From positions 62,001 through 126,000 of the forward strand of contig NZ_JACNME010000001.1 of the NCBI RefSeq assembly GCF_014270065.1: a DNA stretch of 64,000 nucleotides, written 5' to 3'. Both the position numbers and the translations under genes were made by a program. The stretch's first letter is position 1, and the number at the start of each line of letters is the position of its first letter. This DNA comes from Quadrisphaera sp. RL12-1S. Its GTDB lineage: Bacteria; Actinomycetota; Actinomycetes; Actinomycetales; Quadrisphaeraceae. Of the stretch, positions 1,481 through 39,221 are shown in pieces. Below the pieces are notes generated by a model. That model saw only the letters and a program-made list of their open reading frames with translations. It was not told the DNA's origin and searched no databases.

Positions 1481-3580
1481 GTGCCCCGCACCGCCCCCGC
1501 GCGCAGCCTGACGGCCGCCGTCCTCGCCCTCGTCTGGTCGCTCGTCGGCTTGCTGTGGCTGGCCGCACCGGCGCTCGCCGAGCCGCCGCAGCGCCTCGAC
1601 AGCGCGATCACCGACACCGCCGGTGTGCTGGACGAGACCGCCACCCAGCAGCAGCTGGAGACCCTGCGCGACGCGGCGGGCATCGACCTCTCCGTGGTCT
1701 TCGTCGACTCCTTCGACGGCGAGCAGGGGCCGCAGTGGGCTCGCCAGACCGCGCAGGAGAGCGGCCTCAGCGGCAGCGACGTCCTGCTGGCGGTGGCGGT
1801 GCGGGACCGGTCCTTCGGGTACGAGGGGTTCAGCGGCGGCCGGCTCACCGAGTCGCAGGTGTCCTCCGTGATGGAGGGCGACGTCAAGCAGGCGCTGGGC
1901 CGCAGCGACTGGAACGGCGCCGTCACCGCCGCGGTCAACGGCCTGGGCCGCGCCGCCGACGGCAGCGGCTCCGGGACCTCGGCCAGCGGCGGCTCGAGCG
2001 GCTCGGGGTTCCCGGTGGGGCTCGTCGTCGTCGGGGTCGTGGTGGTGCTGGGCGTGGCCCTGCTGGTGCTGGGCCTGCTCTCCAGCGCGTCTCGCAGGCG
2101 ACGCCGCGCGGGCCTGGCCGGCCCCCCCGGCGGTCCCGGCGCTCCGGGCGCCGGCGGGGGCGCGCCCCAGGCGCCGCCGGTGCCGCTGCCGGAGCTGGAG
2201 CGGCGGGCGTCGGCGGCGGTGGTGGCCGCCGACGACGCCCTCGACGGCTCCGACGCGGAGCTGGGCTTCGCCCGCGCGGAGTTCGGCGACGCGGCCACCG
2301 CCCCCTTCGTCGCCGCCGTCGAGCGCGCCCGCTCCGAGCTCGCCCAGGCGTTCGCGATCCAGCGCCGCCTGGCCGACGGCGCCGCCGCCGACCCCGTCGG
2401 CCGGCCGCTGGACGACGACGACCGCCGCGCCCTGCTCACCCAGCAGCTGCAGCACGCGCAGGCCGCCGACGCCGCCCTCGACGAGCAGAAGGACGCCTTC
2501 GAGGCGCTGCGCGACCTCCAGCGCCGCCTGCCCGACGTGCTGCCCGCCCTCGAGGCCGACCGCTCCCGCCTGGCCGACCGGCTGCCTGAGACCCGCCGGC
2601 GGCTGACGGACCTGCAGGCGCGCTACGCGCCGGCCGCGGTGAGCAGCGTCGACGGCGACGACGAGCACGCCTCCCGCCTGCTCGACCTGGCCGCCCAGGG
2701 CCTGGCCACCGCCCGCGAGCGCCAGGCCGCGGGGGCGGCCGGGGAGGCCGCCGTGGCCGTGCAGGCGGTGCGCGACGCGCTGCGGCGGGCCGGTGAGCTG
2801 CTCGACGCCGTGGACGCCCTCGGCCGCGACCTGCAGAGCTCGGTGGACTCGCTGCCGAGGGCGCTGGCGGAGCTGGACGCGGACCTCGCCGAGGCGCGCG
2901 CGGTGCTGGCGGCCGGCGGCGGCGCGTCCAGCAGCGACCTGGCCGGTGCCGTGGGGCGCGCCGAGCAGGCGGGGTCCTCCGCGCGGACGGACGGACAGCG
3001 GGACCCGCAGACGGCGCTGCGGCGCGTGCACGAGGCCGACTCCGGGCTGGACGCGGCACTGGCCGGTGCCCGCGAGGAGGGTCAGCGCGCCTCCCGGGCC
3101 CGGGCCCAGCTGGAGCAGGCGCTGCCGGCGGCCCGGGCCGAGGTGGCTGCCGCTCGGGCGGTGGTGCGCACGCGCCGCGGGGCGGTCGGCGGGCAGGCTC
3201 GGGCGCTGCTGGCGGGCGCCGAGGAGCAACTGGCCAGCGCCGAGCAGCTGGCCGGACCGGACCCGGTGCGGGCGCTGGCGGCGGCCCAGCAGGCCGACGC
3301 CCTGGCCGAGCGGGCCCAGCGCGAGGCCGACGACGACCTGGGCTCCTGGTCGGGCTGGGGCGGTGGGGGCGGGTCCCGCTACGGCAGCCGGTACGGCAGC
3401 AGCGGCTCCTTCGAGGGCGCGGTGATCGGCGGCGTCCTCGGCGGGATCCTGTCCGGAGGGGGCGGCGGGCGCTCCGGCGGCTTCGGCGGCAGCAGCAGCT
3501 GGGGCGGAGGTGGCGGAGGCTTCGGCGGTGGCGGAGGCTTCGGTGGTGGTGGGTCCTTCGGCGGCGGCGGGAGCTTCTGA
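1481..3580 (+). CDS. TPM-domain membrane protein with long helical region and glycine-rich tail
   Basis: A 699-residue protein. Residues 1-33 form a signal peptide ending APALA, followed by a TPM (YgcG-type) domain at about 40-150 (RLDSAITDTAGVLDE, IDLSVVFVDSF, LLAVAVRDRSFGYEG). A Gly/Ser linker leads to one membrane helix at about 178-202, then a long Ala/Glu/Arg-rich helical, coiled-coil-like region to about 600 and a Gly/Ser-rich tail (about 618-699). The expected topology is extracytoplasmic TPM domain and cytoplasmic helical region. TPM domains occur in photosystem repair factors and in bacterial proteins of unclear function, so no reaction is assigned. A GGGAGG site precedes the GTG start. 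The SMP-30 gene starts 1 bp after the stop, so the two are probably co-transcribed. Confidence 0.82.
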   Translation: MPRTAPARSLTAAVLALVWSLVGLLWLAAPALAEPPQRLDSAITDTAGVLDETATQQQLETLRDAAGIDLSVVFVDSFDGEQGPQWARQTAQESGLSGSDVLLAVAVRDRSFGYEGFSGGRLTESQVSSVMEGDVKQALGRSDWNGAVTAAVNGLGRAADGSGSGTSASGGSSGSGFPVGLVVVGVVVVLGVALLVLGLLSSASRRRRRAGLAGPPGGPGAPGAGGGAPQAPPVPLPELERRASAAVVAADDALDGSDAELGFARAEFGDAATAPFVAAVERARSELAQAFAIQRRLADGAAADPVGRPLDDDDRRALLTQQLQHAQAADAALDEQKDAFEALRDLQRRLPDVLPALEADRSRLADRLPETRRRLTDLQARYAPAAVSSVDGDDEHASRLLDLAAQGLATARERQAAGAAGEAAVAVQAVRDALRRAGELLDAVDALGRDLQSSVDSLPRALAELDADLAEARAVLAAGGGASSSDLAGAVGRAEQAGSSARTDGQRDPQTALRRVHEADSGLDAALAGAREEGQRASRARAQLEQALPAARAEVAAARAVVRTRRGAVGGQARALLAGAEEQLASAEQLAGPDPVRALAAAQQADALAERAQREADDDLGSWSGWGGGGGSRYGSRYGSSGSFEGAVIGGVLGGILSGGGGGRSGGFGGSSSWGGGGGGFGGGGGFGGGGSFGGGGSF

Positions 3581-6296: not shown

Positions 6297-7019
6297 ATGG
6301 CGCAGCAGTCGCTGCTGGGACGGGTCGGGCAGCTGGTCCGGGCGAACATCAACGCCCTGCTGGACCAGGCCGAGGACCCGCAGAAGATGCTCGACCAGAT
6401 GGTCCGCGACTACACGCAGGCCATCCGCGAGGCCGAGCAGTCGGTGGCGCAGACCATCGGCGACCTGCGCCTCATGGAGGACGACCACGCCGAGGCGGTC
6501 GCCACCGCGAAGGAGTGGGGCGGCAAGGCGGCCGCCGCCTCCCGCAAGGCCGACCAGCTGCGCGGGGAGGGCAACGGCACCGAGGCCGACAGGTTCGACC
6601 AGCTGGCCCGCGTCGCCCTGCAGCGCCAGATCGACGCCGAGGGCCACGCGAAGGGCTTCGAGCCGCAGATCGCCTCCCGCACCGAGGTGGTCGAGAAGCT
6701 CAAGACCGGCCTGGAGGGCATGCGCCGCAAGCTGGAGGAGCTGAAGTCCAAGCGCGACGAGCTGGTGGCCCGCTCCCGGATGGCCGCCGCCCAGTCCCAG
6801 GTGCACGACGCCGTCAAGGCGGTCGACCTGCTCGACCCCACCAGCGAGGTGTCCCGCTTCGAGGAGAAGGTGCGCCGCGAGGAGGCCCGCGTGCGCGGCC
6901 AGGAGGAGCTGGCCGCCTCCAGCCTCGACGCGCAGTTCGAGGCGCTGGAGGCCGACGGGGACCAGACCGAGGTCGAGCTGCGGCTGGCCGCCCTCAAGGG
7001 CGGCACCTCCACCGACTGA
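6297..7019 (+). CDS. pspA: PspA/IM30 family membrane-stress protein
   Basis: A 240-residue, almost entirely alpha-helical protein. It has the family N-terminus [49 protein letters not shown] and long heptad-rich coiled coils to the end ([31 protein letters not shown]). PspA/Vipp1 proteins assemble on the inner face of the membrane and protect it under stress. The ATG at 6297 places this N-terminus correctly. It is divergent from the PAS gene. No pspB/C-like partner is adjacent; the next gene is an AAA ATPase behind its own dyad element. Confidence 0.9.
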
Positions 7020-7022
7020 GGG

Positions 7023-7079
7023 CTTGACAGGATTAGCGGAGATTATCTGTTGTTGATAAACTTTGCTAATCCTGTCAAG
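7023..7079 (+). promoter_or_regulatory. 57-bp AT-rich dyad (candidate operator) before the AAA ATPase gene
   Basis: Perfect 15-nt inverted arms, CTTGACAGGATTAGC at 7023-7037 and GCTAATCCTGTCAAG at 7065-7079, surround a second inverted pair, TTATC (7043-7047) and GATAA (7055-7059). Both pairs share the same centre at 7051. The segment is far richer in A+T than its surroundings. It ends 8 bp before the GTG of the ATPase and each outer arm contains TTGACA, a -35-like hexamer, once on each strand. It may be an operator, or a structured leader of the ATPase mRNA; I could not place a convincing -10. Confidence 0.7.
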
Positions 7080-7087
7080 ATCGAGGG

Positions 7088-8278
7088 GTGGACCGCGCGC
7101 GCAACCCCTACACGCCCAACGCCGGCGCACCCCCGCGGCACCTCGCAGGCCGCGCCTCGGAGGTGGAGGACTTCCGGACCCTCCTGAAGCGCCTCCAGCG
7201 CGGGTACACGGAGAAGTCCGTCGTCATCACAGGCCTTCGCGGCGTGGGGAAGACAGTGCTGCTGGGCGAGTTCCAGCGCATCGCCGACGACGAGAACTGG
7301 GTGGCGGTCGAGACCGAGGTCTCCAAGACGACCCGCTTCGGGCCGCAGATGGCGAACCTCGCCCGACGGGCCCTGCTCAAGACCTCACCCCGAGCCCGTT
7401 GGACCGAGCGCGTGACAGCAGCCGCCGCGGTGGTGAAGTCGTTCTCGTTGACCGTCCAGCCCGGCGGTTCCCTGACCGGCGGGCTCGACATCGAAGCCGA
7501 GCCCGGAGCAGCGGACACCGGTGACCTCAACGAAGACCTGGCCGACCTCTTCGAAGCCGTGGGCCGAGCGGCGAAGGCCCAGGGCCGAGGCGTGGTCTTC
7601 CTCTTCGACGAGGTCCAGTTCCTCGGGAAGCAGGAACTCGAAGCGCTCATCGGCGCCGTTCACCGCACCGTCCAGCGCCAGCTCCCCGTGACGTTCGCGG
7701 GGGCGGGACTACCTCAGCTCCCGGGACTGGCCGGTGACGCCAAGTCCTACGCCGAACGCCTCTTCCGCTTTCCCACCATCGGTGAGCTCGCAGGACCAGC
7801 GGCCGTCGACGCGCTGATCCAGCCGGCTCGTGCGGAGGGGGTCGCCTACGAGGACCGGGCGGTCGACCACATCGTCGACTACACCGAGGGGTACCCCTAC
7901 TTCATCCAGGAGTACGGGCGGGCCGTCTGGGACCTGGCACAGGGGCGTTCCATCACGCACACCGATGCGGTCGAGGCACAGACCTTCGTCGAAGCAGAAC
8001 TGGATGAGAGCTTCTTCAAGACGCGCGTGCAGCGCTCCACCCCCGAGGAGCTCCGGTACATGCGCGCCATGGCCGAGCTCGGTGCGCAGGCGCAGAAGGC
8101 CTCCGACGTCGCGGAGGTGCTCAACCGCACCTCAGAGCAGGTGGCGCCCCTGAGGGCGCGGCTCATCAACAAGGGCCTCCTGTACACGCCGCGCTACGGC
8201 TTCGCGCGGTTCACCGTCCCCCAGTTCGACAGGTTCATGCGGCGCCACATGGATCTGGACGCCGCACCGCCTGCCTGA
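7088..8278 (+). CDS. AAA-type ATP-binding protein, function unknown
   Basis: A 396-residue protein. The N-terminal motif [17 protein letters not shown] leads into a P-loop NTPase with Walker A GLRGVGKT (about residues 49-56) and Walker [10 protein letters not shown] (about 175-183), then a C-terminal region with winged-helix character ([37 protein letters not shown]). This is the layout of orphan actinobacterial AAA_16-like ATPases, some related to Orc/Cdc6 or STAND regulators; no function is known. Codon use is less GC-extreme than in its neighbours and the gene sits alone behind an AT-rich dyad, which fits an acquired accessory gene. Confidence 0.75.
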
Positions 8279-8352
8279 CGCTCATCCATCGTTCAGCCGG
8301 ATGTCACCGGCCGGGAACGCGGGGACCGAGGGCGCCGACCACGGTGGGGGCC

Positions 8353-9459
8353 ATGACGCTGGACCCCTGGCGCTCGCGCGCGGCCGCGACCGTCTCCACC
8401 CTGCTGGCGGGCCTGGTGCTGGCCGGGACCGTCGCGGGCCCGGTGGCGGTGGCCGCGGCGGGCCCGGAGGCGGCGGCGAGCGACCGCGCTGGCGCCTCGG
8501 CAGCCGGCCGGTGCTCGGCGGCGGTCTCGCTGACCGGGTACTCGGACGCACTCGACGGCACGACCTTCCAGGGGGTACCGGTCAGCGGCCTGTCCGCCCT
8601 GGGCGTGACCGGCCGCGGCGACGTGCTGGCGCTGTCGGACAGGTCGGCCCTGTTCACCCTGGGCCAGCGCTCGCACCGGCCCGAGCGCGTGGTGCGGCTG
8701 GCGGCTCCGGACGGCTCCACCCTCGACAGCGAGGGGCTGGCCGTGGACGGCGACGGCACGGTGTGGGTCTCCTCCGAGACCGGGCCGCGGGTGCTGCACC
8801 TGGCCGCCGACGGCTCCGTGCTGGGCGAGCTGGAGGTGCCGGCGGCGCTGCGGGTGGCCCCGGTGGGACGGGCGCAGGAGAACGCCTCCTTCGAGGGGCT
8901 GACGCTGTCCGCGGACCGGAAGGTCCTGCTCGCCGCCGACGAGGCGTCCCTGTCCGGGGACGCCGACGGCGTGGTGAGGTTCCAGACCTGGACGCGGCCC
9001 GACGCGTCGTCGTCGTTCTCCCCCGGCCCGCAGCTGGCGTACCGCGCGGACCCGGGCCTGGGCGTCTCGGAGGTGCTGCTCGCCCCGGACGGGCGCCTGG
9101 TCGTCCTGGAGCGCGGCTACCTCCCGGCCTACGGCAACACGGTCCGCCTCTACCTGGTGGACCCGCACCTCGCGGACGGGCGCGCGCACGACGTCAGCGG
9201 CACCGCGGAGCTCTCCCAGGACGACGACGCGGTGCTCGGCAAGCAGCTGCTGGCGGACCTCGTCACCTGCCCGTCGGGCGGTGCGAGGGCCCAGCAGCAG
9301 CAGGCGAACCCGCTGCTCGACAACGTCGAGGGCATGGCGCTGGTGGGGGCGGACGGGGACCGGCTGCGCCTGCTGCTCGTCAGCGACGACAACGGCCGGC
9401 CCAGCCAGACCACCCGGCTGCTCGACCTCGTGGTGCGCCTCCCCGCTGCCCACCGCTGA
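8353..9459 (+). CDS. Secreted esterase-like protein of the phytase family
   Basis: A 368-residue protein with a signal peptide (residues 1 to about 32, LAGLVLAGTVAGPVAVAAAG). The mature part resembles the phytase-like esterase family: SGLSALGVTGRGDVLALSDRS, DSEGLAVDGDGTVWVSSETGPRVL, ENASFEGLTLSADRKVLLAADE and a closing NVEGMALV...LLLVSDDN block. These are blades of a beta-propeller with acidic metal-binding positions. A phosphate- or ester-cleaving role outside the cell is likely, but the substrate is unknown. The ATG at 8353 was chosen; a GTG at 8344 would add three residues. Confidence 0.75.
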   Translation: MTLDPWRSRAAATVSTLLAGLVLAGTVAGPVAVAAAGPEAAASDRAGASAAGRCSAAVSLTGYSDALDGTTFQGVPVSGLSALGVTGRGDVLALSDRSALFTLGQRSHRPERVVRLAAPDGSTLDSEGLAVDGDGTVWVSSETGPRVLHLAADGSVLGELEVPAALRVAPVGRAQENASFEGLTLSADRKVLLAADEASLSGDADGVVRFQTWTRPDASSSFSPGPQLAYRADPGLGVSEVLLAPDGRLVVLERGYLPAYGNTVRLYLVDPHLADGRAHDVSGTAELSQDDDAVLGKQLLADLVTCPSGGARAQQQQANPLLDNVEGMALVGADGDRLRLLLVSDDNGRPSQTTRLLDLVVRLPAAHR

Positions 9460-9470
9460 CCGCCGACGCC

Positions 9471-11237: not shown

Positions 11238-11294
11238 GGAAGTCCATGATCACGGCGGGGAGGGGGTCCCTGCCCTCCGTGATCATGGACTTCC
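11238..11294 (+). terminator. Hairpin of the GTGATCATGG repeat family
   Basis: Perfect 18-nt arms (11238-11255 and 11277-11294; right arm begins CCGTGATCATGG) flank a 21-nt G/C-rich loop. It lies 16 bp after the DUF885 stop and before the co-oriented symporter gene, so it is placed as a factor-independent terminator, but no T-run follows. The unit orientation is reversed relative to the copies at 15299 and 35522. The rest of 11295-11516 holds nothing I recognise. Confidence 0.6.
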
Positions 11295-15298: not shown

Positions 15299-15352
15299 CG
15301 TGATCATGGGAGTTGTGCCTACCGGGTGGTAGGCACAACTCCCACGATCACG
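15299..15352. terminator. Bidirectional hairpin built of two inverted 25-nt repeat units
   Basis: Arms at 15299-15323 and 15328-15352 are 25 nt with one mismatch and a 4-nt loop. Each arm starts from the outside with CGTGATC(A/G)TGGGAGTT. It fills the gap between two convergent genes, so it can stop transcription from both sides. Confidence 0.75.
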
Positions 15353-21650: not shown

Positions 21651-21720
21651 GGTGCTCGGAGGATCGGCCCCTTGGGAGTGACCGGTCCGTCACTCCGAAG
21701 GGGCCGATCCTCCGAGCACC
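21651..21720. repeat. 70-bp hairpin in a divergent intergenic region
   Basis: Perfect 23-nt arms (21651-21673 and 21698-21720, left arm starting GGTGCTCGGAGGATCGG) are extended inward by a second 8-nt pair (21675-21682 and 21689-21696) after a single mismatch, leaving a 6-nt loop CGGTCC. It lies between divergent lpdA and the AbiEi-like gene, upstream of both, so it is not placed as a terminator. The rest of 21530-21819 shows nothing else. Confidence 0.85.
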
Positions 21721-38608: not shown

Positions 38609-38706
38609 CCGCACCTGACCTCGGTCACCTCCGGAGGTGACCGAGGTCAGGTGCGGATGCGTCGCGCCAGGAACGCCCCACCGGGACTGACCGAGGTCAG
38701 TCCCGG
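38609..38706. repeat. Two palindromes of the TGACCNNGGTCA family between cdd and deoA
   Basis: First, a perfect 48-bp palindrome (arms 38609-38632 and 38633-38656, no loop) holding TGACCTCGGTCA and its complement. Second, 12-nt arms (38681-38692 and 38695-38706) around TGACCGAGGTCA. They fill the gap between the cdd stop and the deoA start and match the core of the 125-bp array at 983. They may terminate cdd or bind a regulator. Confidence 0.8.
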
Positions 38707-39170: not shown

Positions 39171-39221
39171 GGTGTCCGGAGCCCGGGGCCCTGTCGGACA
39201 GGGCTCCGGGCTCCGGACACC
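39171..39221. terminator. Hairpin with 25-nt arms between the permease and cdd genes
   Basis: Arms 39171-39195 and 39197-39221 begin GGTGTCCGGAGCCCGG from the outside, with one mismatch (G-T wobble possible) and a single loop base. It lies 26 bp after the NupQ-type permease stop and 41 bp before cdd, so it probably ends the transporter transcript. Confidence 0.7.

Follow-up and report, generated by a model that had tools for sequence, protein, structure and literature searches.

The ATPase locus and its upstream dyad

The window, that is the whole stretch of 64,000 nucleotides from Quadrisphaera sp. RL12-1S analyzed here, contains a gene coding for an AAA+ ATPase with an AT-rich dyad directly upstream (Table 1). 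The outer arms of this dyad, CTTGACAGGATTAGC (7023-7037) and GCTAATCCTGTCAAG (7065-7079), are exact reverse complements of 15 bp each and share their center, position 7051, with an inner pair, TTATC (7043-7047) and GATAA (7055-7059); 8 bp separate the end of the dyad from the GTG codon of the ATPase gene (7088). GC content is 0.386 in the dyad versus 0.751 in the window, and equally AT-rich 57-mers represent 0.0125% of those in the window. The perfect arms, the concentric inner pair, the strong AT-richness and the distance of 8 bp to the GTG had all been claimed in the original prediction and are exact; its description of the element as 15-bp arms plus an inner pair has nevertheless to be recast, the dyad really consisting of six boxes of about 5 bp located roughly one helical turn apart.

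Table 1. Positions in the window of the ATPase gene, the candidate operator with its boxes and the predicted promoter hexamers.
Feature	Position	Strand	Basis and remarks
Six-box palindromic operator (candidate, whole dyad)	7023..7079	.	Center base 7051; exact arms, upstream conservation, genome uniqueness
Box L3, TTGAC	7024..7028	+	TTNNC column block at -27 of the symmetric profile
Box L2, TTAGC	7033..7037	+	Column block at -18
Box L1, TTATC (inner left element)	7043..7047	+	Strongest column block, -8 to -4
Box R1, GATAA (TTATC on the - strand)	7055..7059	-	Profile columns, covariation; overlaps predicted -35
Box R2, GCTAA	7065..7069	-	Symmetric profile columns
Box R3, GTCAA	7074..7078	-	Symmetric profile columns; overlaps predicted -10
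Predicted -35 hexamer, TTGATA	7053..7058	+	Read from sequence; 17 bp before -10
Predicted -10 hexamer, CAAGAT	7076..7081	+	6 nt before GTG (leaderless mRNA model); weak consensus match; TANNNT peak in sister genes
AAA+ ATPase gene, 396 aa	7088..8278	+	AAA_16; STAND/Orc1-Cdc6-like; C-terminal winged helix, recognition helix ~349-361

As a bare inverted repeat, the dyad is neither unique nor exceptional within the window. Indeed, 17 perfect inverted repeats with arms of at least 12 bp occur there (shuffles average 2.4); besides the dyad, five have longer arms and one more has 15-bp arms, and the longest arm across 25 shuffles of the window was 15. The longer-armed repeats (38609-38656, 21651-21720, 11238-11294, 15307-15344 and 39171-39221, with arms of 16-24 bp) are perhaps terminators. 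Since other long perfect repeats are present in the window, the case for the dyad must depend on conservation, and it is by its composition, its position and above all its conservation in homologues that the dyad is distinguished. The arm sequence has a single occurrence in the window (0.17 matches expected at up to three mismatches) and, across the 4.6-Mb assembly, the exact arm is found once, at the ATPase dyad.

The ATPase belongs to the Pfam family AAA_16 (PF13191), with 68.7 bits against a gathering threshold of 32.6 (E 1.1e-18, residues 19-201). Its score is below threshold for the archaeal ATPase family (PF01637; 22.3 against 33.2 bits) and so far below the cut-off of the Orc1/Cdc6 NCBIfam TIGR02928 (20.2 against 181.3 bits) that we do not assign it to Orc1/Cdc6. 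STAND proteins are characterized by a hhGRExE-like motif, Walker A, Walker B and a GxP motif. In the ATPase, Walker A and B are intact and GYP is present; across 77 homologues, G21, R22, K55, D174 and E175 are invariant, and G268 and P270 nearly so. In the AlphaFold model (mean pLDDT 95.2), the AAA+ core is followed, as in Orc1/Cdc6 proteins (matches to 2qby, 2v1u and 1w5t), by a C-terminal winged helix predicted with high confidence, in which we read the recognition helix near residues 349-361. Nearest in fold are archaeal Walker ATPases, Orc1/Cdc6 proteins, matched over the whole length with DNA-bound structures included, and the NTPase modules of NLR/CED-4 proteins, in keeping with a STAND/NLR-like fold (2qen, Z 24.0; NRC4, 19.9; CED-4, 16.9). 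The best whole-length matches, the archaeal Walker ATPases 2qen (P. abyssi) and 2fna (SSO1545; Z 23.1), are 13% identical to the ATPase. The prediction for the protein is a compact AAA+ ATPase of STAND/Orc1-Cdc6-like type that ends in a winged helix. In STAND proteins such as CED-4, the winged helix of the NTPase module is not known to bind DNA, a point against the operator reading proposed below.

Of 394 genomes sampled from the class, 122 have matches to the ATPase family. Relatives also occur on 115 plasmid records, with identities of up to 53%, and one lies on the 5.9-kb record MT837995, labelled as a bacteriophage from human faeces. A defense function was considered and dropped, the best PADLOC match being no better than E 0.012.

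A putative self-contained module

The gene upstream of the dyad (6298-7020), named by sequence reading, is PspA-family-like. Among the relatives examined, a PspA-like gene next to the ATPase is shared only by the sister species Quadrisphaera granulorum, in which dyad and ATPase are at the same place behind this gene. In two congeners (G009 and G010), the PspA-like gene joins sequence matching the window from ~9434-9467, and 7021 to ~9430 is absent. The unit common to the two carriers, the window and Q. granulorum, is about 7023-8278. A crude comparison of neighboring ORFs in the clade revealed no recurrent neighbor gene or operon partner of the ATPase and, together with the empty sites in congeners, this supports the earlier proposal that ATPase and dyad constitute a self-contained module. 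The following region (8279-9430, with a phytase-like gene) is unmatched at the corresponding place in Q. granulorum and is missing with the ATPase in G009 and G010, which suggests a second indel here. In another relative (L037), a sequence resembling a tRNA 3' end is found just upstream of position 3001, directly before the ATPase.

Conservation of a six-box array in homologues

Homologues were collected from one bacterial genome scan (51 loci) and, in far larger number, from family and class searches, and a symmetric profile was fitted on the upstream regions of the 31 genes whose identity to the window ATPase is 50% or more. This profile contains three boxes per half, whose TTNNC blocks begin at -27, -18 and -8 relative to the center and are mirrored on the other side, separated by poorly conserved spacers; in the window, the boxes are spaced by 9, 10, 12, 10 and 9 bp, each about one helical turn. 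When each locus was scored with a profile excluding that locus and anything more than 75% identical to it, the six-box array was recovered upstream of 30 of the 31 homologues, where it scores above every one of 100 dinucleotide shuffles (z 5 to 13), its center being located 42 to 63 bases upstream of conserved Asn-Pro-Tyr codons. The sole exception is a Chloroflexi MAG (L026). Upstream of more distant homologues outside Actinomycetota, a clear array or dyad was mostly not found, and a generic dyad test was passed by 32% of 153 homologue upstream regions, a low rate explained in part by the many imperfect arrays. The original prediction had proposed to look for the same dyad before homologous ATPase genes and had regarded homologues lacking it as evidence against an operator: the expectation holds, at the same place, throughout the clade with one exception, and fails for most of the more distant homologues outside Actinomycetota.

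Moreover, the two halves change in concert. When 20 sites are aligned without gaps, both members have changed in 18 of the 25 mirrored column pairs, and the covariation score reaches 0.328 versus 0.177 in shuffles, with none of 500 shuffles attaining it; this shuffle control is inflated by sequence relatedness, which is retained in a second control where shifting the partner column by 1 to 3 positions lowers the score to 0.08-0.16. Paired cells between the arms amount to 74% versus 65% in shuffles, in a count that admits G-U, no standard pair in DNA. Pairing is strongest in the box columns and poor in some spacers, the column pairs 19/45 and 20/44 being often unpaired (14 of 20 sites for 20/44). 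Such a confinement to the boxes is the trace expected of a protein that recognizes short boxes, and less that of an RNA stem.

The site is also linked to the ATPase gene across genomes. A sequence profile of the site was run against 17 genomes and, in the family of the window, its sole match is the site before the clade ATPase, once per genome (G000, G001, G006, G007 and G008), with no match in the eight family genomes devoid of the clade ATPase. Outside the family, the profile found the ATPase site in G025 and, weakly, in G276 (E 0.77), matched an unrelated place in G118 (E 0.35) and missed G161, and hence loses power at distance. The operator reading put forward originally is strengthened by this pattern, with an array conserved before nearly all clade genes and found solely beside the ATPase in the window's family. 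What the sequence comparison itself establishes is that the array exists, is conserved, has arms that change together, is unique and is linked to the ATPase gene.

The genome of the window encodes an ATPase paralogue (42% identity, G000:C2:444382) with a six-box dyad of its own in 444302-444382. Upstream of this paralogue and of its relatives in three congeners, three TGTAG boxes face CTACA boxes, with spacings of 10, 10, 12, 10 and 10 bp measured on the orthologue L081, and no second TGTAG triple occurs in the genome besides that before the paralogue. In a third subfamily, a large one, the boxes are of the TCTAG type and precede a -10-like hexamer. Across these subfamilies, the layout of the putative operator is retained while the box sequence differs, and the box type follows the family tree. 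A correlation between recognition helix and boxes beyond protein relatedness was set aside as proof, since the relatedness-corrected association of upstream similarity with the recognition helix is weak (partial Mantel, partial r 0.07, p 0.02; r 0.05, p 0.10 when the remainder of the winged helix is also controlled for). Genes of the TCTAG type (e.g., L119, L096 and L151) also share a conserved motif, CGACACG, that lies upstream of their boxes, and remote paralogues (L082, L084 and L059; 26-43% identity) are directly preceded by long, nearly perfect dyads of other sequence.

Regarding the promoter, both predicted hexamers, -35 and -10, fall within the right half of the dyad or at its border. 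In 108 sister genes (35-50% identity), 95 TANNNT occurrences have their first base at -12 to -14 relative to the start codon, with a median of zero elsewhere, a position that corresponds to a leaderless-promoter arrangement. A consensus promoter scan of the window did not report the TTGATA/CAAGAT promoter. Some clade members contain an AAGGAG-like sequence in place of the -10 and, with CAAGAT being itself weak, the promoter map is uncertain.

A candidate autoregulatory operator

We consider it probable (about 0.72) that the dyad is an autoregulatory operator, bound cooperatively by the ATPase and probably repressing its gene. The dyad is a site at the candidate regulator's own promoter, albeit a predicted one, and is conserved with the gene, as an operator should be. 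Six mirrored boxes at a promoter, together with an ATPase of an oligomer-forming type containing a domain of DNA-binding type, point to a cooperative assembly on its own promoter, and the ATPase gene is favored as the target because there are no recurrent neighbors to regulate instead. In the proposed mechanism, the ATPase would bind TTATC-type boxes of about 5 bp through its C-terminal winged helix. Each half offers three boxes on the same helix face at intervals of about one turn, and the two halves face each other, so that a symmetric oligomer made of two groups of three subunits could assemble on the 57 bp. As its right half would cover the predicted -35 and -10, the assembly would shut off transcription, and it is because of this overlap with the promoter that repression is favored. 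The nucleotide state of the AAA+ domain may set the efficiency of assembly. We infer binding by the ATPase, the size of the oligomer, repression as opposed to activation, the cellular role and the nucleotide control, the latter because of the Orc1-2 (PMC9738581) and DnaA (PMC8203912) precedents.

The same protein could use the site as an activator or bistable switch, through positive autoregulation, or as a working platform. The left half lies upstream of the -35, a frequent position for activators, and the site is unique in the genome, leaving the ATPase without another evident DNA target; the right half over the predicted -35 and -10 is a better fit to repression, and we regard this possibility as unlikely. 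Recognition by another regulator, a resident repressor or DnaA, is decidedly less plausible. DnaA boxes do contain TTATC (TTATCCACA, PMC8203912), but no CACA follows the boxes here, the element is not found in family genomes without the clade ATPase, and paralogues have the same layout with unrelated boxes; we thus rejected DnaA boxes, sister clades using TGTAG or TCTAG.

There is a slighter chance still that the dyad is the end of a mobile element or an attachment site, or an origin-like site for an Orc-like initiator, which the presence/absence among congeners, the Orc1/Cdc6-like fold and the plasmid-borne relatives would suit. It is yet a single-copy element, with none at the 3' end of the gene, has no recurrent neighbor such as a recombinase, and is nearly fixed relative to start codon and promoter; an att site or transposon end was discarded, as a second copy was not found. 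Least credible is an RNA hairpin, either a terminator of the PspA-like gene or a hairpin controlling translation. Strong folding of the transcript is predicted (-36.1 kcal/mol, z -7.9), but conservation resides in boxes one turn apart with spacer pairs often unpaired, and a leaderless start would leave the element outside the mRNA. As for a terminator, the candidate was rejected because no terminator-like site was found at the dyad, which has no T run, and because the element goes with the ATPase, the PspA-like gene lacking it in four congeners.

Relation to known systems and significance

Among the fold matches of the ATPase is a STAND regulator of the MalT type (8bob). MalT forms an ATP-dependent oligomer that binds cooperatively to several short boxes; its effector-binding region is separate, its DNA-binding domain is of the LuxR type, and its targets are other genes, which it activates. 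Several short boxes and a cooperative, ATP-dependent oligomer are likewise what we propose for the window ATPase, while the effector-binding region, the LuxR-type domain and the activation of other genes are absent from the proposal. DnaA is likewise an AAA+ ATPase that binds DNA through a C-terminal domain, and it autorepresses its gene, as is proposed here, by way of short boxes that include ATP-specific ones; it differs by its helix-turn-helix, its 9-mer boxes of other sequence and arrangement, and its many other target genes (PMC8203912). Orc1-2 of Saccharolobus is an AAA+ ATPase of the Orc1/Cdc6 fold with a winged helix used as a transcription regulator: this DNA-damage regulator has been footprinted on an ANTTTC motif in its own promoter, and ATP hydrolysis is needed to switch off its regulation (PMC9738581). 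Unlike the window ATPase, Orc1-2 is archaeal and controls several genes via a hexanucleotide motif (PMC9738581), whereas the system described here is bacterial, has its six-box dyad solely at its own gene and is similar to Orc1/Cdc6 proteins below the family cut-offs. In the open-access literature, to which the search was confined, we found no account of this ATPase family or of its site.

A tentative and rather doubtful generalization would be that compact STAND/Orc-like ATPases are widespread single-locus switches of Actinomycetota, in which a nucleotide-gated 3+3 oligomer would assemble on one six-box site per genome, at its own promoter, with paralogues insulated by different boxes on a shared scaffold and the output being the assembly state itself. 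The present analysis turns an unnamed ATPase family into a putative, testable DNA-binding regulator with a defined site, which may provide a natural series for the co-evolution of an AAA+/winged-helix protein and its site and would represent a bacterial counterpart to the archaeal Orc1-type regulators.
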